A stretch of 64,000 nt of DNA, from assembly GCF_000827595.2 (NCBI RefSeq), contig NZ_LN776186.1, positions 164,236-228,235 on the forward strand, in the 5' to 3' direction. Source of the stretch: Necropsobacter massiliensis. Its GTDB lineage: Bacteria; Pseudomonadota; Gammaproteobacteria; Enterobacterales; Pasteurellaceae. This document shows, piece after piece, positions 55,483 to 64,000 of the stretch. Under the pieces are notes generated by a model. That model saw nothing but the letters and a program-made list of their open reading frames with translations. It did no database searches and was not told the origin of the DNA. Position 1 is the first letter of the stretch. The number at the start of each line of letters is the position of its first letter. The position numbers and the translations under genes are program-made.

Positions 55483-55577
55483 GGAAGATCGTCGTTTCCG
55501 GTGAAGCGGCAGGACTTCAAATCCTGTTAAGGTTGCCAGCAATCTTGGGTGGGTTCGACTCCCATGATCTTCCGCCA
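55483..55577 (+). tRNA. selC: tRNA-Sec (anticodon TCA)
   Basis: 95 bases ending in an encoded CCA. The acceptor stem GGAAGATC pairs with GATCTTCC (eight base pairs), G73 discriminator, a long variable arm, and the T-arm GGTTCGACTCCC. The anticodon TCA is at 55517-55519 within ACTTCAAAT. The sequence closely follows E. coli selC. The 3' part is a known attachment site for P4-type integrases, and an integrase gene lies 320 bases downstream. Confidence 0.97.
55550..55577 (+). other. probable left attachment site (attL) in selC
   Basis: The 3' T-arm and acceptor of tRNA-Sec abut mobile-element DNA: no further chromosomal genes are seen after 55577, and a P4-type integrase follows. The core would be the 3' end of the tRNA. 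The right copy (attR) is outside the window, so the exact core is not known. Confidence 0.6.
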
Positions 55578-55896: not shown

Positions 55897-57156
55897 ATGC
55901 CTAAAGTGACAACACCGCTTACCGATACAGAAATTAAAAAATCAAAGCCCAAATCGAAAGAATATATACTTTCCGATGGTGGAGGGCTTATCCTACGCAT
56001 AAAACCAAACGGGGCGAAGTTATGGATTTTTAGTTACTATCACCCAATCACAAAGAAACGGGATAAATTAGGCTTAGGCAGTTATCCTGAATTGTCCCTT
56101 GCCGATGTGCGCGCCAAGCGTGAAGAATATCGGCAGTTATTAGCAAAGAAAATCGACCCTCGCACTTACGAAGCCCAAGCTAGACAAGAAAATGCAGACA
56201 AACAGAACCGCACTTTTGCGCGCATGGCAGAAGCATGGTTTAAGGATAGACAGATGAAAGCTGACTTTACCGAGCGCACCGCAAAAGATACATGGGCTTT
56301 ATTTGAGCGGCACATTCTCCCCGCTATCGGTAAATATCCAATTGACCAACTGACCGCACTTATTGGCATTAATGCTTTCAAGCCATTAGAGCGTGCAGGG
56401 AAGTTAGAAACCGTCAGGAAGATCTTAAACAACGTAAATCATGTTATGCGTTACGCTTTGCACCGTGGCTTAATTGCCGTCAATAACTTAGCTGAGATCC
56501 AACGAGAATTTGATAAACCGCGCGTAAAAGGCATGAACACCATAGCGCCCGACGAGCTGGCGGAATTTTTAGCAAAATTCTACCAAGCAAGAGATGATGG
56601 CAGATTTTCCTTATTGTCGTTCTATGCTGTGATGTTAGCACTATTGACCGGAAGCAGACCGAGCGAAATAGCGCGGGCGCAATGGGAAGATATAGACACC
56701 TCAGCGCAAACATGGAGCTATCGAGTACAGAAAGGCAATAAGAACTTACCGGAAGGACGATTGCATATTGTCACCCTTTCCCGTCAAGCGATGGCCATCT
56801 TTGAAAAAATGCGGGAAATTCAGACCGCACTTAGTCTAACTGGTAGCCCTTTTGTCTTTGCTAGTACCGCCGCCAAGAGTGGGCATATCACCATTGAAGC
56901 CTTGCGCATGGCCATTATTCGGAGCATGGGCGAAGGGCGATTGACTACCCACGGCATCAGGCATTTGTTCAGCACCTCACTGAATGACAAGAACTATAAC
57001 GCAGATTGGATTGAAAAAGCCCTATCACACAAGGATAAGAACGCGATCAGGGGAACATATAACAAGGCTTACTATATCCACCAGCGGGCAGAGATGTTGC
57101 AGGCATGGGCGGATTATGTGGAATCATTAGCCCCCCGTCCAATTGTTGATAAATAA
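55897..57156 (+). CDS. P4-type tyrosine integrase
   Basis: 419 residues. N-terminal arm-binding domain (DUF4102; LSDGGGLILRIKPNGAKLW, about 1-95), core-binding SAM-like domain (about 105-200) and catalytic domain: Arg in LLTGSRPSEIA near 253, HGIRH near 351-355, LSH near 372 and the nucleophilic tyrosine in GTYNKAYY near 388. It integrates the element into selC. Three uptake words lie inside the gene. It reads away from the tRNA on the same strand. Confidence 0.95.
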   Translation: MPKVTTPLTDTEIKKSKPKSKEYILSDGGGLILRIKPNGAKLWIFSYYHPITKKRDKLGLGSYPELSLADVRAKREEYRQLLAKKIDPRTYEAQARQENADKQNRTFARMAEAWFKDRQMKADFTERTAKDTWALFERHILPAIGKYPIDQLTALIGINAFKPLERAGKLETVRKILNNVNHVMRYALHRGLIAVNNLAEIQREFDKPRVKGMNTIAPDELAEFLAKFYQARDDGRFSLLSFYAVMLALLTGSRPSEIARAQWEDIDTSAQTWSYRVQKGNKNLPEGRLHIVTLSRQAMAIFEKMREIQTALSLTGSPFVFASTAAKSGHITIEALRMAIIRSMGEGRLTTHGIRHLFSTSLNDKNYNADWIEKALSHKDKNAIRGTYNKAYYIHQRAEMLQAWADYVESLAPRPIVDK

Positions 57157-57648
57157 CCCGGTAAGAAGTCGCAGGGGGGCTATAAAATCGCTATGGCGAT
57201 CAGCAGAACAAACCGCCCACTCAACTCAATTTTCACAACCGTGAAATTAAGATTTTATGATGATAACAGATGACGGCAACAAGAGATGGCTTGTTAAGTT
57301 TTGAATAAAAGGTACTCCCAAGCGGGTTAGGGCTTCCAAGGGGTTGGGAGCGCGCGGTTTTCGGCAGTTTTTTCACTTTTTAGGCATCATCATCTTCCGG
57401 TAAAACCGCCTTTTTATAGCGTTCAGAAACCTGGTTATTTATACAGTTTTTTTTGTTCGTCCTATTGAAACCTTATTTCCCTTGTGAAAGAATAAGCCAA
57501 CATAAACCGCCGTAAAGATACGGCAAGATTAATACTAGATATAGTGCGACTAGGTGCGGATTAATTACCCAAACCGAAAGAATGAAACCCTATTTTCATT
57601 TTGTCGCACTTCCTTTCAGGAATAGGGACTTACGCATAGGGGCGTTTT
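57157..57648. other. 490-base leader with hairpins between int and the cargo genes
   Basis: No gene is seen. It holds a short hairpin TTTCAC-AACC-GTGAAA at 57231-57246; a composite hairpin with CTCCCAA (57315-57321) and TTGGGAG (57344-57350); a stem GCGGTTTT (57354-57361) with AAAACCGC (57402-57409) and five T; and CCCTATT (57588-57594) with AATAGGG (57621-57627) directly before the first cargo gene. The third can end int transcription. The fourth may control the cargo genes. Confidence 0.5.
57354..57415 (+). terminator. possible terminator after int
   Basis: GCGGTTTT and AAAACCGC form an eight-base stem over a 40-base loop, followed by CTTTTT. The long loop makes it less certain. Confidence 0.4.
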
Positions 57649-58329
57649 ATGACTTATGAAGATAATCAGTTCTTGTCTTTATTGGAAAACTCTTACGATC
57701 CACTAATTAGTTTTAAAGAGTTAATTCTCCAAATATCAACCTACACAAATCAAACACCAAGCCAAATTGCCGATAAATTAGAAACACTATTATTTGATTT
57801 TCGACAGAATGGAGCTTATATCAATTCCTTTTGTTACTGCACAATTATAAATAAAACTGGAAGTGAAAGAGAAATTTACGAGCCAATGGAGAATAATTTT
57901 AAAGACGCTTTTAATTTTGTTAAAGGTCATTTAAAAGACATTATTTTGCGTAATTCTCTTGATATTGAAAATATTGATATGTTTTTTGTTAGGCGTTCTG
58001 AAATCATTCAACGAATTAAAATATCTAAATCATTAATACTGAATAAAGTAAACTCGATTCCACTACAACAAATTAGCCAAATAGAAGGCGATTATATTAG
58101 CCTTTATGCGCTTTTAGAGTGGGCTAAGCCAGACTATGAAAATCTATCCAAAACAGCGGTAGATTTACTTAGATTGTTACAAGGGAGAGATGTTCAGCTT
58201 TACCGCAGATACAGTGGTATTAAGAAAAATATAGACAAGGACGATACCAATATTAAAGAGCTATTGAAATTTGTTCAGAAAAATAACGGCTACAATGAAT
58301 ATCAACCAGAAGATGAAATTCCTTTCTAG
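57649..58329 (+). CDS. cargo protein A of unknown function
   Basis: 226 residues, AT-rich gene. I do not recognise the family. No signal peptide or membrane helix is seen; the protein looks mainly helical, acidic at the ends and basic in the centre (RRSEIIQRIKISKS, residues about 120-133). The start ATG follows a hairpin leader and GCATAGGGGCG. Gene B starts 12 bases later with AGAGGAAA, so they form one operon. The position between integrase and alpA is where satellites carry host-benefit or phage-defence genes. No uptake words are present. Confidence 0.75.
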   Translation: MTYEDNQFLSLLENSYDPLISFKELILQISTYTNQTPSQIADKLETLLFDFRQNGAYINSFCYCTIINKTGSEREIYEPMENNFKDAFNFVKGHLKDIILRNSLDIENIDMFFVRRSEIIQRIKISKSLILNKVNSIPLQQISQIEGDYISLYALLEWAKPDYENLSKTAVDLLRLLQGRDVQLYRRYSGIKKNIDKDDTNIKELLKFVQKNNGYNEYQPEDEIPF

Positions 58330-58341
58330 AGGAAATGAGAA

Positions 58342-59232
58342 ATGTACCAAAGACAAGCACAGCGAATTTTTACAGAGCAAGATTTTAAACAATTATTGAT
58401 AAATAGATCTGACATTGAAAAAGCCTTAGATCTAAAAATTGAACTACAAAAAAGCAGTGATGAGCAATATTTAGAAGATTACGCTTTATTCCCTGAGATA
58501 CACTTACATGATGTTATTTGTATTTTTTTAGGTCTACACCCAGAAGATATCAATGCGACACAACATCCAAGATATAATGTCATTTATGCTGCTATATCTC
58601 AACAAGCAGAAAAAGGACTAATTAAATCAACGATTGAATATGATATAAATGGAAATTTAACAGCTATATTTATCCCTCATTCAACAGCGAGAAATATTGC
58701 AAACTCAAGAGGATATGAGTGGAACGTTCCACCATACCGGAATTTAGTAGAAAATGAAAACCTGTCAAAACCTGACATTTTAGACACAGCAAAAGATTTA
58801 ATCATTGCTGAACTACGAGCCGAGAAAGCTAAAAATGAACAACTACAAGCCGAAAACGAAGGTTTAAAAGCTGAAAATGCAGAGCTAAAGGTACAGCCTA
58901 AGCAAAGTGCAGTAGATTCTGAAAGTATTTTAGAATTGGAAAATCAACTTGCCGAAAAAGACAAAATCATAGAAGAACTAAGAGAACAATTGCAACAAAA
59001 GCCCAATAACACCGCGTCTGATAACAAAAAGAACGCATTCATAAAATCACTGTTATTTATTCATTATGGCGAGCAAGTGGCAGAAAATCCCCGTCCGTAT
59101 ATTTACGATCCAAACTCCAGTGAAAAGAGCAAAGACGGCGTGATTCAAAAGAGTTTTGAGTTAAGCGGTTTAGATAAGCACTTGCCAAGCGGGCGAACTC
59201 TCCAAAACTGGATTAAATCCGTAGATTTATAA
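58342..59232 (+). CDS. cargo protein B, coiled coil with C-terminal domain
   Basis: 296 residues. An N-terminal globular part (about 1-140) is followed by a coiled coil rich in Glu, Leu and Lys (about 149-222, LRAEKAKNEQLQAENEGLK) and a compact basic C-terminal domain (about 230-296: FIKSLLFIHYGEQVA ... LPSGRTLQNWIKSVDL) that looks like a small DNA-binding or wHTH-like module. I do not recognise a named family. Coupled with protein A and closed by a strong terminator, so the two genes are an isolated unit. Confidence 0.75.
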   Translation: MYQRQAQRIFTEQDFKQLLINRSDIEKALDLKIELQKSSDEQYLEDYALFPEIHLHDVICIFLGLHPEDINATQHPRYNVIYAAISQQAEKGLIKSTIEYDINGNLTAIFIPHSTARNIANSRGYEWNVPPYRNLVENENLSKPDILDTAKDLIIAELRAEKAKNEQLQAENEGLKAENAELKVQPKQSAVDSESILELENQLAEKDKIIEELREQLQQKPNNTASDNKKNAFIKSLLFIHYGEQVAENPRPYIYDPNSSEKSKDGVIQKSFELSGLDKHLPSGRTLQNWIKSVDL

Positions 59233-59248
59233 CCACACCTAAAACGGG

Positions 59249-59296
59249 AAAAGACTGGAAAACGCTGGAATTTACTGGCAATTTCCAGTCTTTTTT
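59249..59296 (+). terminator. terminator after the cargo operon
   Basis: AAAGACTGGAAA (59250-59261) pairs with TTTCCAGTCTTT (59282-59293), followed by T residues. The loop holds further CTGGAA-like words. Confidence 0.8.
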
Positions 59297-59372
59297 ATTT
59301 TATCTCCCACAATACCCCTACACCGTCCACTGCTGGCGGTTGATATTAGTTTATAAACACTAGGGGTAAGCA

Positions 59373-59579
59373 ATGACACTTCAAACACAAACCGATCCAA
59401 ATAAACGTTGTTCATTGGCAGAGGTTAAAGATCTTGCCGGCGGCGTATCACATACATTCATTTATCAACAGGTGAAAAAAGGCTTATTAGCACCGCCTGA
59501 AAAATTAGGGCGCATGAGCCGTTGGAAATATGCTGACGTGATGGCATGGCTTAATGGCGAAACCGCAAAGGCACACTGA
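59373..59579 (+). CDS. AlpA-family transcriptional regulator
   Basis: 68-residue MerR-like helix-turn-helix protein (SLAEVKDLAGGVSHTFIYQQVKKG, then PPEKLGRMSRWKYADVMAWL). AlpA proteins in P4-like elements control excision and integrase expression. AGGGG lies six bases before the ATG. A ten-base palindrome GTTTATAAAC and the CCCCTA/TAGGGG pair just upstream could be its operator. It heads the early operon. Confidence 0.88.
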   Translation: MTLQTQTDPNKRCSLAEVKDLAGGVSHTFIYQQVKKGLLAPPEKLGRMSRWKYADVMAWLNGETAKAH

Positions 59580-59592
59580 TGGAGGGGGAAAA

Positions 59593-59853
59593 ATGAATCA
59601 AATTCCTTTTCTTTCCACCACCAGCACGGGCGAACAACGCCGATTCACCATTGAACGGCTAAGAGAGCGTCCGCACAGCACCAACGAACTACGGCAAATG
59701 GGCGTTTATTCCCCGCTGGCACGCATTAAGGAATTGCGTAATCAAGGTTATTTAATTGATACGTTCTTTCGTGACGAAACCGACAACACCGGCTTAACTC
59801 ACCGCGTGGGCGTTTATGTTCTGCACGAAAACGAAGTAAGCCAAAATTCTTAA
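59593..59853 (+). CDS. small winged helix-turn-helix protein
   Basis: 86 residues. The pattern RPHSTNELRQMGVYSPLARIKELRNQGYLI is that of a winged HTH module seen in small phage proteins. A polypurine GGAGGGGG stands before the ATG at 59593, which is preferred to an in-frame start inside alpA. It lies 13 bases after alpA. The role is unknown; it probably binds DNA. Confidence 0.75.
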   Translation: MNQIPFLSTTSTGEQRRFTIERLRERPHSTNELRQMGVYSPLARIKELRNQGYLIDTFFRDETDNTGLTHRVGVYVLHENEVSQNS

Positions 59854-59880
59854 TATAACGAGCATAGAGCGATTTTAACG

Positions 59881-60204
59881 ATGAATAATGCAATGACACC
59901 AATTAACCAGAAAAAACAACAAGGCGCAACACTGGCGGGCATTGAGGAGATGATTAGCCGTATTGAAGCATTTTCAAGTTCAGCCGTTACCGGCAATGCA
60001 TCAACTCTCAACCCTGACGGCACAAAAACACCGATGTCGCAAAATGAAATCTTTGATCTGATTAATGAGATGGCAAACCTTGCCTTAATGGATATTCAAG
60101 CATTACGCCAAGAACTTGAGAGATTGACTATCCACCACAAAACCAAAGATGAATCAGTCTGTTTGCCGGTGGTGAACTTAAAGGGAGAGGTGGCCAATGA
60201 CTGA
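59881..60204 (+). CDS. hypothetical protein of the element
   Basis: 107 residues, soluble, helical at both ends, with a Ser/Thr/Asn-rich central stretch (about 30-50). Family not recognised. The weak ribosome site (GAGCG, far upstream) makes the start less certain. The next gene overlaps its end by eight bases, so they are translationally linked. Confidence 0.65.
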   Translation: MNNAMTPINQKKQQGATLAGIEEMISRIEAFSSSAVTGNASTLNPDGTKTPMSQNEIFDLINEMANLALMDIQALRQELERLTIHHKTKDESVCLPVVNLKGEVAND

Positions 60205-60415
60205 TCAAACTACCAACGAAGAACAGGAAAAGCCCACGCTAGAAATGGCGCGGAAATATATCGCCAAACTACGGGAAATCACCGGAGCAATGGTGGAGGA
60301 AAGAGAACTTAAAGACAACCTAACACCTACTGATATGTGGAAACTTGTTCACGCGCACTTAGGCAATACAGCACGCCTGATTGAAATCGCACAAGAGCAA
60401 CTCAAGAGGATTTAG
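60197..60415 (+). CDS. hypothetical protein of the element
   Basis: 72 residues, acidic N-terminus and helical remainder. It overlaps the preceding gene by eight bases, with GGGAGAGG before its ATG. Family not recognised. Confidence 0.65.
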   Translation: MTDQTTNEEQEKPTLEMARKYIAKLREITGAMVEERELKDNLTPTDMWKLVHAHLGNTARLIEIAQEQLKRI

Positions 60416-60418
60416 ATA

Positions 60419-60520
60419 ATGAGTTACGGGCAAAAATTGAAAGTCACCCCAAGAAAGCCCCAAGGGTTTAAAAAAATAACAGCGCCTTTGAGCAACAAAG
60501 ATCCGCTTAGAAAAGAGTAA
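60419..60520 (+). CDS. 33-residue basic mini-protein
   Basis: ATG at 60419 follows AGAGGA and opens a 33-codon frame (MSYGQKLKVTPRKPQG...). It fits exactly between its neighbours (three bases after the previous stop, seven bases before the next ATG). It is rich in Lys, Pro and Arg. The reading is tentative. Confidence 0.5.
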   Translation: MSYGQKLKVTPRKPQGFKKITAPLSNKDPLRKE

Positions 60521-60527
60521 CTTTTTT

Positions 60528-60803
60528 ATGAAATGCGCAATCGCCAAACATACCCCGCTTATTTTGATTCAAGCGGTTAGACACTATCAGAAATCGGCTC
60601 AAATCTTCACTTTCCCAAGCCTGTATGACGATTTCGAGCCTTACCCGATAAAAGAGGTGGTGGACGTATTAAAACTCAAGGCAAGTGATTTAGAACGCGC
60701 TATCGACGCGCACCCGTTGAATGAATCACTAAAAACGAGCTTTTACACCACACAGAAACATTTAATCCAAATGCAAAAGCGACTAAAGGAGATGACTCAA
60801 TGA
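60528..60803 (+). CDS. hypothetical protein of the element
   Basis: 91 residues, soluble. It has a helical C-terminal half (TTQKHLIQMQKRLKEM). The stop overlaps the antirepressor ATG by four bases (ATGA), so it is co-translated with it. Family not recognised. Confidence 0.65.
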   Translation: MKCAIAKHTPLILIQAVRHYQKSAQIFTFPSLYDDFEPYPIKEVVDVLKLKASDLERAIDAHPLNESLKTSFYTTQKHLIQMQKRLKEMTQ

Positions 60804-61528
60804 AAACTGAAATTATTAATCTATTACAAACAACACAAGCCCTTGATGGTGGAAATCAAGGCATTAATGCGCGTGATGTTCATCGCCTGTTGAACGTAGG
60901 CCGAATGTATCAACACTGGATTAAGGCACGCATAAAACAGGCGGGATTTAGTGAAAATCAAGATTTTGTAATTGTTCAGAATTCAACCATTGGTTTGCCA
61001 AAATTGGCAAGCGCAAAAGGTGGAGATACACGCAGTTATGATTATATCGTTTCCCTTGATATGGCAAAGCACCTTTGCTTAATGGAGAAAAACGAAATCG
61101 GCAGAGCGGTTAGACAGCACTTTATCGAGGCAGAAAGGCAGTTAAAACAGGTTGCGCCAAAGGTTTATAAAAACACCTTAGCCAAAACCCTTGAACGATT
61201 GGAAAGTATCGACAGAAACCGAGAAATGACGGACGCAATCAAAGCACGGTTACAGAGAAACGGAACACAGCCGAAACCCTATCATTACAGCCAAGAGCAA
61301 GAAATGTTAGACAGTCTAGTGTTAGGGGTAAATGTTCGCAAATGGAAAGCGGCTAAAGGGATTAAAGGCAATGTGCGGGATTATTTCAATGTGGCACAAA
61401 TTCGCTTATTGAAAACACTACAAGCTACCAACGCCGCACTGATTGAGCTTGATACAAGCTACCAAGAACGCAAGGCACAGTTGCAGAAATTAAGCCAACG
61501 TTATTTAAGCGAACAGTTGGCGGCATAA
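60800..61528 (+). CDS. AntA/AntB family antirepressor
   Basis: 242 residues. The N-terminal AntA/AntB domain is clear: NARDVHRLLNVGRMYQHWI, FSENQDFVIV, then YIVSLDMAKHLCLMEKNE and QHFIEAERQLKQ (about 15-115). The C-terminal half is a helical, basic domain. In phage P1 and related elements, ant relieves repressor control and its synthesis is limited by c4 RNA; here the c4-like region lies just downstream. Confidence 0.88.
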   Translation: MKTEIINLLQTTQALDGGNQGINARDVHRLLNVGRMYQHWIKARIKQAGFSENQDFVIVQNSTIGLPKLASAKGGDTRSYDYIVSLDMAKHLCLMEKNEIGRAVRQHFIEAERQLKQVAPKVYKNTLAKTLERLESIDRNREMTDAIKARLQRNGTQPKPYHYSQEQEMLDSLVLGVNVRKWKAAKGIKGNVRDYFNVAQIRLLKTLQATNAALIELDTSYQERKAQLQKLSQRYLSEQLAA

Positions 61529-61553
61529 GACAACATCAAAATAAATTTACCGC

Positions 61554-61582
61554 TTGACACTTTCCCGCGATAGGCATAGAGT
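61554..61582 (+). promoter_or_regulatory. strong promoter of the control region
   Basis: Perfect TTGACA at 61554-61559, 17-base spacer, TAGAGT at 61577-61582. The transcript would start near 61589 and run through the first target site to the terminator at 61646-61672. Confidence 0.7.
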
Positions 61583-61588
61583 GAAAAG

Positions 61589-61672
61589 GCAGTCTGAAAA
61601 GAGATTGCCAGCCGTAGGAAGCTGAATAATTTACAATTGGCGAACAGCACGCCGTTAAATCGTGCTTTTTTT
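61589..61672 (+). ncRNA. short leader RNA with target site 1
   Basis: About 84 bases between the promoter and an intrinsic terminator. It contains a hairpin GGCAGTCT/AGATTGCC (61589-61609) and target motifs GTAGGAAGCTG (61614-61624) and ACAATTGG (61633-61640). No coding frame is evident. It corresponds in position to the seqA-containing leader of P4. Whether it is stable as a separate RNA is unknown. Confidence 0.5.
61646..61672 (+). terminator. intrinsic terminator inside the control leader
   Basis: AGCACG and CGTGCT with a nine-base loop, followed by seven T. It lies just after target site 1 and before the antisense segment, so it can gate transcription into the icd-like gene. Confidence 0.75.
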
Positions 61673-61723
61673 GTTCGTGAATTTAACACACCTAAAATAA
61701 ATACGTTCCCCGAATTTGGGGAG

Positions 61724-61741
61724 ATTGATTTATTCATCAAT
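61724..61741. promoter_or_regulatory. operator-like palindrome before the antisense segment
   Basis: ATTGATTTATTCATCAAT: six-base arms around six bases. A weak TTGATT/TGTTAT promoter overlaps it. A repressor target is possible. Confidence 0.35.
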
Positions 61742-61754
61742 GATGGCGTGTTAT

Positions 61755-61850
61755 GGGCAGTCTTTAAGACTGGCTGCTTTTCCAATTGTGAGCAGTTTCC
61801 TACCCCGTAACACGCTATCGCCCAGCCGTAGGAAGCCAAGCGATAGCCCT
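61755..61850 (+). ncRNA. c4/CI-like antisense RNA segment
   Basis: First a hairpin CAGTCTT/AAGACTG (61758-61772). Then CTGCT (61774-61778) with AGCAG (61791-61795) closes a twelve-base loop that shows CCAATTGT (61782-61789). Next is CAGTTTCCTAC (61793-61803). Both are complementary to target sites 1 and 2: ACAATTGG fully, GTAGGAAGCTG with one G-U pair. This is the architecture of P1 c4 and P4 CI RNAs. Ends are estimated. Confidence 0.65.
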
Positions 61851-61868
61851 AAAATTTTACAATTGGAG
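61814..61868 (+). promoter_or_regulatory. target site 2 and ribosome site of the icd-like gene
   Basis: GCTATCG (61814-61820) and CGATAGC (61841-61847) form a stem whose 20-base loop shows GTAGGAAGC (61828-61836). ACAATTGG (61859-61866) runs into the GGAG (61865-61868) that serves the ATG at 61878. Pairing with the antisense segment would hide the ribosome site. Confidence 0.6.
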
Positions 61869-61877
61869 CAAATCGCA

Positions 61878-62105
61878 ATGATTTATTTATTCCGTGGCAT
61901 TTCTCGCCAAGATTTCGCGAACACCGCATTAAATCTTCACACCTTCCCAACACACCGCTTAGCCGTTGAAGCGGAAAACGAAAACACCGCCAGAAATCAC
62001 TTCTCAAAAGATTATCTGCTGATTTCGTGCGGACAAATCAATCCCGTTCACCTTAAAAAAACTCGTGTTCAAAACCACCGTGTGCAAGGGGTGATTTATG
62101 CGTAA
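61878..62105 (+). CDS. Icd-like small protein
   Basis: 75 residues: MIYLFRGISRQDFANTALN, HRLAVEAENENTARNHFSKD, YLLISCGQINPV. The pattern resembles the host cell division inhibitor (Icd-like) proteins of P1 and P4-like elements. GGAG lies nine bases before ATG 61878; an in-frame ATG at 61716 would run through the antisense region and is rejected. Downstream genes overlap, so the block is one operon. The function is inferred from context. Confidence 0.65.
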   Translation: MIYLFRGISRQDFANTALNLHTFPTHRLAVEAENENTARNHFSKDYLLISCGQINPVHLKKTRVQNHRVQGVIYA

Positions 62106-62280
62106 CAACGAAACTAGAGAAGCCCTAAAAACCCTATGGGAAGCGCAAGCCATTGCCGAATTAATCAGCAAGGTAGTAGGCGAAGTTGAGAAAACAGATC
62201 CAGTCATCTATGAAACCGCTTTCCGTGGCGTAGCGCGTTTAGTGCTTGATGCCGTGATGACGTTAGAAGAAGAGTTATAA
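62098..62280 (+). CDS. hypothetical small acidic protein
   Basis: 60 residues, helical and acidic (ends LEEEL). It overlaps the icd-like gene by eight bases, with AAGGGGTG before the ATG. Family not recognised. Confidence 0.65.
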   Translation: MRNNETREALKTLWEAQAIAELISKVVGEVEKTDPVIYETAFRGVARLVLDAVMTLEEEL

Positions 62281-62290
62281 GAGGTGATTT

Positions 62291-62521
62291 ATGCTTAATC
62301 AACGTATTGATCAATTCCAATTTAATTTACTGAAATCTGAAGTAAGTAACCTTGAAGAAGTGAACGTGCTATTAAATTTACTTTTTACCCACACCGATTT
62401 AGACAGTGTCGATAGTTGCGAAATGGAGTTAGCATTAAAAGGAATTAACCGCTTATTGGAAGATGGGATTGCAGAGATTAATCATCGTATCGCCTTTATG
62501 CTTGGCGAGGAGGTGAAATAA
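62291..62521 (+). CDS. hypothetical small helical protein
   Basis: 76 residues, acidic and helical, with GAGGTG before the ATG. Its TAA shares one base with the next ATG (TAATG). Family not recognised. Confidence 0.65.
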   Translation: MLNQRIDQFQFNLLKSEVSNLEEVNVLLNLLFTHTDLDSVDSCEMELALKGINRLLEDGIAEINHRIAFMLGEEVK

Positions 62522-62964
62522 TGGATCTCAATCAAGAAATGGATTATTCCAAATTAAGCGCCGTTGAATTAAACGCGATTTCAATTAGTCATCAGAACAT
62601 GGGAAAACGCAAAGATGAAGCCTTTAATTCGTCTTTCCCTTATACGACGGAAGCAATTCAGGCATTAGCCGAACAGTTTATTGATTATCCCGCTGAATAT
62701 CTCGGCGGGCTAAAAATTGTTCATGATGAACTACTGGCTATCAATAAGCATTTATTAGCAATGGCACCGAAACCACCTTCACCCAATCCGGAAGAGGTAG
62801 CGGCGGAATTATTTAATGATGAACTGATAGATGGTTTATTAAAACATTGTGTAGTGAATTCCTTGGTCGAGGCGTTTTCCTATTTTCAAAAAGTAGTCAA
62901 TATGCGCATTCACACAATTGAGAAAGGTGCGGTTGAGGGGGTAAATCATGGCACGCTTAATTAA
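62521..62964 (+). CDS. hypothetical protein of the element
   Basis: 147 residues, acidic, helical, with a proline-rich stretch (APKPPSPNPEE, about 81-91). Coupled to both neighbours by overlaps. Family not recognised. Confidence 0.65.
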   Translation: MDLNQEMDYSKLSAVELNAISISHQNMGKRKDEAFNSSFPYTTEAIQALAEQFIDYPAEYLGGLKIVHDELLAINKHLLAMAPKPPSPNPEEVAAELFNDELIDGLLKHCVVNSLVEAFSYFQKVVNMRIHTIEKGAVEGVNHGTLN

Positions 62965-64000
62965 TGCCCCTTATGTGAAACTACAAGACCAAACAGGCGA
63001 AACGGAAATCACGATTTGCTTAGGTGTGCAGGCGTGGGAGATTGCCAAACACATTGACGAATCGGGCAAAAGTGCGGTTGAAATCGACCTCGAAAATGCC
63101 TTAGGCGAGAATGCCCTCAAATCGCCTTGTGTGGTGGTGGACGATAAAGCCTTAGAAACTATCCAATCATTACGAATTGCCCCGAAAAACGCCCGTTATG
63201 TTCGTTTAATTCGGGCAAATGGCGGCAACACGTTAGACTCGGAGACCTTAGAGGCGGTTTATTTGAATCTTGCCACACATACGGCAGCCGAAAGTGTGAT
63301 TTATTGTGATGAAGCGTTGCAGATGATTGAAGATGTGAGCCGATATATTCAGCGCATACGCAAGGGGGAAACCTATCACGGGAACATTCAGCTAATTGTG
63401 GAACCCACCCGAGATAATCATCAACCCTATATCGAAGAACGCAAGGAAAACGGCATAGCGGGCATTTATCGCATTATTCCGAAGTTAGACAAGGACACGG
63501 GCGAATTAAACGAAAAAAGCGAATGGTTAGCGGATTGTGTGGACGTGGTGGGCGTGGGTATTTCCGAGAGTGAATATTTTTCGATGCTTTCCTTTCAGGC
63601 ACAAGGCAAAACCGAACCGACTTTAATCGCGCTTCCGTGGGCGGATATTGGCGAACGTGCAGGGTGGCAACTACTCAAGCAAAAAGGCGTAAGAGTAACC
63701 AATAATCAACGGCTCAAGCCTTATTTAGCGGATTTTCTGCAAGATACGCAGAATAAACCCATTTATCAGATTGTAAATGAGACTGGCTGGCAGGCGGATT
63801 TTAATGCGTATATTTTGCCAAATGGCGAAGTGTTGGGAAAACCAAGTCGGCCCGTTTATTTCAACAGTAAATCATCCACCACCGCAGGCTATCAAGCCAA
63901 AGGCGCGTTAAATGACTGGCAACAGGAAATCGGGCAATATCTCGAGGGCAATCATTCAATGATGTTAGGTATGGCGTGTTCTTTGGCTGCGCCTTTGATT
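62948..64000 (+). CDS. DUF927 domain protein, replication helicase-like (cut by window end)
   Basis: Starts at ATG 62948, 17 bases inside the preceding gene, and stays open for 351 codons to the window edge. About residue 170 onward the sequence fits DUF927, found in phage and element DNA-replication proteins: YQIVNETGWQADFNAYILPN, WQQEIGQYLEGNHSMMLG, ACSLAAPLI. The Walker region of such proteins would lie past the window end. It carries one uptake word near 63071. In P4-like elements this position holds the replication primase/helicase. Confidence 0.8.
   Translation, partial: MARLINAPYVKLQDQTGETEITICLGVQAWEIAKHIDESGKSAVEIDLENALGENALKSPCVVVDDKALETIQSLRIAPKNARYVRLIRANGGNTLDSETLEAVYLNLATHTAAESVIYCDEALQMIEDVSRYIQRIRKGETYHGNIQLIVEPTRDNHQPYIEERKENGIAGIYRIIPKLDKDTGELNEKSEWLADCVDVVGVGISESEYFSMLSFQAQGKTEPTLIALPWADIGERAGWQLLKQKGVRVTNNQRLKPYLADFLQDTQNKPIYQIVNETGWQADFNAYILPNGEVLGKPSRPVYFNSKSSTTAGYQAKGALNDWQQEIGQYLEGNHSMMLGMACSLAAPLI

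Follow-up and report, generated by a model that had tools for sequence, protein, structure and literature searches.

A C4-type antisense RNA module, probably the immunity switch of a P4-like satellite beside selC in Necropsobacter massiliensis

We describe a C4 antisense RNA module that is most probably (at a rough probability of 0.8) the immunity switch of a P4-like or PICI-like satellite of about 11 kb beside selC. It lies in a stretch of 64,000 nucleotides of Necropsobacter massiliensis, hereafter the window, and it is a real module rather than a chance match, given the score and rarity of its match to Rfam family RF01695, the z-score of its fold and the pairings that are kept by compensatory changes in relatives. 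As read from the sequences of these relatives, the recognition segments of the RNA change fast and nearly always in step with their own flanking targets, in a lock-and-key fashion. Judged from gene order and sequence, the layout of the window's circuit is P4-like rather than P1-like.

The C4 module of the window

RF01695 matched 61736-61825 (+ strand) over the full model length with 61.8 bits (gathering cut-off 45, E 1.7e-11), and the only other Rfam match above cut-off in the 64-kb window was tRNA-Sec. The C4 fold has a computed energy of -40.6 kcal/mol, with z = -6.68. A sequence-only reading of this DNA had called the segment a C4/CI-type antisense RNA and proposed the Rfam search that gave this score; it had also placed targets upstream (a1, b1) and downstream (a2, b2, the latter at a ribosome site) of the antisense segment. 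Both calls were borne out, and every sequence piece that it had named was found in its place when the coordinates were re-read. The parts of the module are as follows.

61554-61582, + strand: sigma-70-like promoter, TTGACA (61554-61559), 17 nt, TAGAGT (61577-61582), consensus match 10/12
61588-61609, + strand: 5' leader hairpin GGCAGTCT/AGATTGCC, from the computed fold
61609-61624, + strand: a1-bearing hairpin, CAGC/GCTG stem with a1 in the loop, from pair counts
61614-61624, + strand: a1 target GTAGGAAGCTG, core GTAGGAA at 61614-61620
61633-61640, + strand: b1 target ACAATTGG, complement of b'
61639-61653, + strand: possible antiterminator, GGCG (61639-61642) with CGCC (61650-61653)
within 61641-61677, + strand: outer stem CGAACA/TGTTCG enclosing the terminator, from pair counts
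61647-61651 and 61661-61665, + strand: arms GCACG and CGTGC of the intrinsic terminator between b1 and C4, U-run at 61666-61672
61736-61825, + strand: C4 antisense RNA, Rfam RF01695, model positions 1-87
61782-61789, + strand: b' antisense segment CCAATTGT, hairpin-2 loop of C4
61797-61803, + strand: a' antisense segment TTCCTAC, junction of C4
61814-61847, + strand: competing hairpin, C4 3' strand GCTATCGC with GCGATAGC, a2 in the loop
61828-61835, + strand: a2 target GTAGGAAG
61859-61866, + strand: b2 target ACAATTGG, its GG common to the Shine-Dalgarno GGAG (region 61859-61868, ATG at 61878)

The promoter had been described as strong. The box is present, and several relatives have by eye a comparable TTGACA box at the same place, but a 10/12 consensus match is no better than chance (1 found against 1.0 expected from shuffles). 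The terminator was not among the hairpins listed by our scan; at 9 nt, its loop is probably too long for the tool, which allows 8. A blastn search of 61540-61900 against phage records gave no match.

Keys and locks in relatives

For comparison, 126 C4 rows from 74 genomes were read, among the better matches of 140 genomes; 123 are distinct and 109 belong to class I, classes and anchors having been defined after the sequences had been seen. Listed matches outside this set include G043:C3:503429, G005:1313359, G138:377759, G068:C166:89, G086:C62:13144 and most of the G087 copies. From sequence and comparison, the parts of the module, their pairing and their coevolution can be followed through this set. 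Anchors for b' and b1 were independent of complementarity and could be placed in 80 loci (29/109 were not anchorable); b' formed 6/6 pairs with its own b1 in 70 of these 80, compared with 0.2% when differing words were swapped. The a' segment fitted its own a1 perfectly in 104/106 loci (swapped, 28/7,992) and its own a2 in 104/105, and b' formed 6/6 pairs with its own b2 in 77/108 loci, five of six in 28 and fewer in 3 (swapped, 0.2%). These fits are kept across a wide range of keys, since the 108 loci use 7 different a' words and 41 b' words in 74 combinations, and in 15 pairs of C4s that share an identical scaffold the keys differ in 73%.

Compensatory changes were counted in an alignment of 60 rows hand-picked from 81 distinct ones (the mosaics L014, L036 and L037 are among the 21 rows not used), and this comparison, which the sequence-only reading had also suggested, showed the pairings kept with compensatory changes. 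The a1:a' pairs were formed in 98.8% of cells and the b1:b' pairs in 99.2%, with compensatory changes at 6/8 of the latter; b2 was left out of the pair counts, its alignment being shifted in some rows. Among the local structures, the leader hairpin was paired in 83.3% of cells with compensatory changes at 7/7 counted pairs, the a1 hairpin stem in 98.3%, the inner terminator stem in 100%, the outer stem in 98.8%, C4 helix P1 in 99.8%, and the competing hairpin in 97.3% with compensatory changes at 3/8 pairs. The whole-structure covariation score was 0.503 against 0.161 for shuffled alignments. Three measures did not separate from 500 shuffles: the count of further pair types reached its observed value in 43/500 in the main 60-row analysis and in 366/500 for the competing hairpin, and the count of pairs with a change on both sides did so in 159/500 for the competing hairpin. 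The remaining covariation measures, for the main analysis, helix P1 and the competing hairpin, were reached by 0/500.

The same relation holds outside the family. In 25 non-family loci (L142 and L148 left out, and several loci coming from single genomes), runs of at least 7 with the own target were found for b1 in 20/25, a1 in 23/25, a2 in 22/25 and b2 in 22/25, against 34/600, 12/600, 6/600 and 22/600, respectively, when targets were swapped. A few modules in the family are mosaics: the b' of L036 matches neither b target, L037 has a b1 and L058 an a1 of a different type, and neither a1 nor b1 fits in L014. Their sequences suggest recombination between keys and locks.

Leader, terminator and putative antiterminator

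That an intrinsic terminator separates target 1 from the antisense segment had been singled out as a notable layout. The terminator is there, but the layout is the usual one of the C4 family and not new: an a1 hairpin could be anchored in 106 of the 109 class I loci, and all 106 have a terminator between a1 and C4, compared with 7/530 shuffled sequences. A second search found a terminator-like hairpin in 147/150 loci of all classes, and a third, tied to b1, missed it in 7/150. By eye, P1 and P4 have the same leader order, with a terminator enclosed by an outer stem (CGGACA/TGTCCG in P1, GCGACA/TGTCGC in P4) and then C4 or CI. A CI-dependent terminator, t1, was reportedly described in P4 by Briani in 2000.

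An antiterminator may also arise from the 3' end of b1, whose terminal GG, together with the following CG, can pair with CGCC in the terminator. A stem between the b1 end and the terminator arm was present in 95/109 class I, 13/14 class II (one row, L011, being cut wrongly) and 16/22 class-wide loci, and the shuffled rates were 12.5%, 19.6% and 24.5%, respectively. When b1 was masked, the computed probability of the terminator rose from 0.77 to 0.97 in the window and from 0.70 to 0.90 in P1, although masking of any competing bases tends toward terminator formation. The mean rose from 0.86 to 0.96 in class I, where 75/104 loci rose by more than 0.01 and 2 fell, and from 0.51 to 0.84 in class-wide loci, where 13/20 rose, L131 and L152 fell, and five of the 20 went from below 0.15 to above 0.85. 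Ten of the 150 loci were left out of this computation, 3 for a weak b1 and 7 for a failed terminator search; 2 of these 7 are class I (L062 and the second module of L072) and were terminator-positive in the other search. Covariation between the b1 end and the terminator arm is seen in class II, with pairing in 12/14 own against 47/170 swapped combinations, while over all loci outside class I the separation is weak (29/36 own, 616/1,238 swapped). The models thus point to an antiterminator that would be weak in class I, would fail or reverse in some other loci and would be stronger in some relatives than in the window. Since masking of b1 raises the terminator probability, C4 bound at b1 would be expected to remove the antiterminator.

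Proposed switch and a possible activator

From these data we infer action in trans, termination, repression, immunity and an antiterminator in the following way. One promoter would give a leader in which a hairpin loop presents a1, followed by b1. With no C4 bound, the 3' end of b1 would pair with the 5' arm of the terminator, and polymerase would continue through C4 into the operon; with C4 bound at a1-b1, the terminator would form and transcription would end before C4. C4 would also pair with a2 and b2 and hide the first ORF's ribosome site; the gene that follows is probably coupled to this ORF. The net effect would be that the primase operon of the resident element is kept off, that C4 limits its own level, and that an incoming element with the same a'/b' key should be silenced. 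Premature termination via seqA and seqC has been reported for P4 CI (PMC4825925 and PMC10111431, both in part).

The leader might also work in another direction. A short terminated a1-b1 leader could act in trans on the long transcript, capture or displace C4 and so turn on translation of the first ORF, in the manner of IsrK; the terminator would then make a sponge RNA and not only an attenuator. We consider this possible if on balance doubtful. For Gifsy-1, IsrK has been reported to act in trans as an activator of its own long transcript (PMC4825925), and the isrK model scored over its cut-off on leaders of 5/7 sources scanned (P4, L001, L003, L068 and L127), among them the second C4 locus of the present genome (58.5 bits, cut-off 50). 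P1 gave only 35.1 bits with isrK but passed the c4-a1b1 model (RF03163) at 51.0, and L127 passes c4-a1b1 too. The conserved competing fold of the C4 3' strand with the a2 flank would suit such an activator: it uses alignment columns in common with C4 helix P1, and since both structures are conserved and mutually exclusive, a long transcript would be either C4-folded or a2-presenting. The window's own leader (scanned within 61400-62100), however, matched neither isrK nor c4-a1b1 at E up to 1, and IsrK-like activation is compatible with attenuation rather than exclusive of it. The immunity switch is the preferred reading, and the gene order of the element bears on it as well.

The element, its gene order and its host

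Behind tRNA-Sec the order is integrase, AlpA-like gene, AntA, C4 module, small ORFs and DUF927 primase, with the following coordinates.

55483-55577: tRNA-Sec (selC), by Rfam
60800-61528, + strand: AntA-type antirepressor/Bro-network gene (Pfam AntA, 1.6e-21)
61878-62105, + strand: first ORF of the controlled operon, 75 aa, its stop overlapping the next start (ATGCGTAA)
62098-62964, + strand: three more small ORFs of the operon
62948-64000, + strand: DUF927 primase-like gene, running past the window end; 731 aa in L033

The primase-like gene matched Pfam DUF927 at 5.2e-51 and PHROG 1139 (DNA primase) at 1.7e-21. The AlpA-like assignment is weak, with HTH_17 below its curated Pfam cut-off and PHROG 66 at 4.4e-06, and neither Pfam nor PHROGs matched the first ORF at E up to 0.01. 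At L033:5954 (about 66,719 in window numbering) the end of the tRNA recurs as a 13-base copy; this probably marks the right end of the element, which would thus measure about 11 kb. Between the primase and this putative right end we found no + strand ORF of 70 aa or more, and no late or packaging genes. The gene-poor right part also holds, from L033:5266 onward (about 66,031), a leader-like stretch with a 5' hairpin and an a1-like loop and with no C4 seen behind it, which may be a relic or a decoy. Immediately right of the putative att core, a HipA_2 kinase and a DUF3037 gene (L033:6090-7654, about 66,850-68,420) match the PADLOC candidate defence pair PDC-M66A/B.

The sequence-only reading had placed a Pasteurellaceae element beside selC, in agreement with the tRNA-Sec found here. 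The host assignment is borne out at the sequence level by 45 words of AAGTGCGGT in the window against 0.61 expected, which we take to be the Haemophilus-type uptake signal, and by the closest relatives of the ORF at 62521-62964, which are in Haemophilus massiliensis (94% identity), Aggregatibacter segnis and A. kilianii. The part of the window that belongs to the element (55897-64000) holds just four AAGTGCGGT words, of which three fall within the integrase and the fourth within the primase.

Gene order also bears on the circuit logic. That reading had taken the first gene for icd-like and inferred that the element is silenced by the logic of P4 and P1, with the antirepressor gene directly upstream; in the logic of P1 proper, C4 blocks an Icd homologue and thereby the antirepressor. 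The C4 family is the same, and a small ORF behind b2 does overlap the next start. However, the window's AntA gene ends at 61528, ahead of the promoter at 61554, so that it does not lie behind C4 and cannot be translated from the C4 transcript; BLASTP showed no resemblance of the first ORF to P1 Icd at E up to 10, and the operon behind C4 leads to the DUF927 primase. On gene order and the lack of Icd similarity we reject the icd-ant chain for the window and hold this logic to be very improbable there, so that of the supposed circuit the C4/CI part stands and the P1 chain does not. AntA does lie downstream of C4 in some relatives. Homologues of the window's AntA (tblastn, E up to 1e-3) were found in 36/126 C4 rows, upstream in 31 and downstream in 5, and homologues of DUF927 in 30/126, always downstream, in counts for which most flanks measured about 1.5 kb and tandem loci were entered once per module. 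The five downstream rows are class II (L006, L011, L071, L078 and L080), in which AntA follows the C4 targets directly, some 200 bases from the start of C4; by their sequence these loci are closer to P1 logic, and direct control of the antirepressor is possible in them.

Least probable of all is that C4 is a relic, or that it was co-opted to control host genes in trans, as proposed from a' differences for Acinetobacter C4-like RNAs (PMC5320573, in part), since the window module is intact and the variable segments of the relatives fit their own flanking targets (a1 104/106, b1 70/80, and 20-23/25 outside the family).

Distribution, co-residence and stacked modules

C4 was found in 96/140 genomes of the window's family, in 36/43 genera, and in 18/274 genomes drawn from the class, two of these 18 being in the window's family. 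The present genome carries a second C4 (G000:C1:140068-140156; L001, L034) with b' ACTGAT and a' CTCA and a DUF927 homologue downstream. The two C4s have b runs of at most 5 with each other's b targets, while the window C4 has runs of 8 and 9 with its own. No exclusion of like keys within genomes was visible: b' was shared by 5/63 within-genome pairs (a count that includes identical rows), compared with 22/281 same-genus pairs in other genomes and 189/6,559 pairs across genera. Three of the five within-genome pairs have identical C4s, and with identical rows dropped 0/49 within-genome pairs share the whole key. Co-residence would be allowed by an immunity that silences replication without blocking integration, and is no evidence for immunity.

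The loci read include ten stacked arrays, each made up of two to four modules with differing keys. By reading, every stacked module is complete with a leader, terminator, C4 and targets of its own, and a small ORF is present in most. In the nine tandem C4 pairs within 1.5 kb the two b' keys always differ, while a' is identical in L060, L067 and L068; in L060 a third complete C4, with another key again, comes after the pair. In every case the b run of a tandem C4 with its neighbour's targets was at most 6, and own b runs of 8 to 13 were found at one or both targets in 17/18 stacked modules. The exception is module 1 of L068, whose own runs are 6 and 5 because of G-U pairs. An array in a genome of another family (L143, G399:C9) has four consecutive C4 modules (C4 at 548, 903, 1501 and 1855 of the locus), with four a' words, two b' words and, by eye, a DUF927-like gene behind. 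In L048 (G026:C2) an inserted IS-like stretch separates two tandem C4 modules. G087 (L118 and others) has 27 C4 matches in one genome, and several that share a contig recur at a spacing of about 7.9 kb, which looks like head-to-tail repetition of an element.

Taken further, these observations would describe a fast-changing key of two parts (a' of 3-4 bases, b' of about 6) whose changes must coincide at three sites, one antisense and two targets; some elements would stack 2-4 modules with different keys before one replication operon, each a lock to be opened, and the b1 antiterminator would make one of the bindings an attenuator. We grant this description somewhat less than even odds. In the parts of the literature searched we found no description of stacked C4 modules, of a family-wide table of keys and locks or of a b1 antiterminator, and we do not claim that they are absent from print. 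The stacked modules raise the question of whether extra C4s widen immunity or add locks.

Comparison with known systems

P4 is like the window in several respects. Its immunity RNA gives 74.9 bits with RF01695, the leader order is by eye the same and a replication (primase) operon lies behind the immunity RNA; the key differs. P4 immunity is reported to control the replication genes of the element (PMC4825925, in part), and, according to PMC10111431, relatives of P4 CI and seqA can be detected with the Rfam models C4 and isrK. The immI region of P1 (c4-icd-ant) gives 68.8 bits and has annotated a1, b1, C4, a2 and b2 in the same order, with an unannotated terminator-like hairpin and outer stem between b1 and C4 as in the window; however, ant is downstream in P1 and AntA upstream in the window, and Icd similarity is lacking. 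For P1/P7, RNase P processing of C4 has been described, which yields a stable RNA of about 77 bases (PMC5320573).

IsrK/STnc1160 (RF01394) shares with the window a short leader that ends at an intrinsic terminator. In Gifsy-1, IsrK is such a leader RNA, with a complementary RNA processed downstream (PMC4825925). The window's leader, in contrast, fits neither the IsrK nor the c4-a1b1 model, and no short ORF-antirepressor pair stands behind it. The gram-negative PICIs have been mapped with an integrase and AlpA, a Bro-network protein with an immunity RNA and a replication zone (PMC10111431, in part), and the window's element has a tRNA-proximal integrase, an AlpA-like gene, a Bro-network protein with an immunity RNA and a replication zone in the same order; it differs from them in having no late or packaging genes between the primase and the putative right end.

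The window module thus belongs to a known RNA family, of which it is a well-formed and ordinary example, and alone it adds one member and a corrected gene logic. The variability of a', the specificity of P1 and P7 by few bases and predictions of C4 in Pasteurellales had already been noted (PMC5320573). The relatives matter more, as they make C4/CI immunity readable from sequence and its keys and locks listable, so that cross-immunity between satellites should become predictable and the origin of new specificities, in which three sites change together, is open to study. The Group 1 sRNAs of Acinetobacter have the same C4 fold and a variable a' loop, and phage or host targets have been suggested for them (PMC5320573, in part), whereas the variable parts in the window's family track their own flanking targets. 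By analogy, own flanking targets may be a simpler account of the Acinetobacter C4-like RNAs than host targets.
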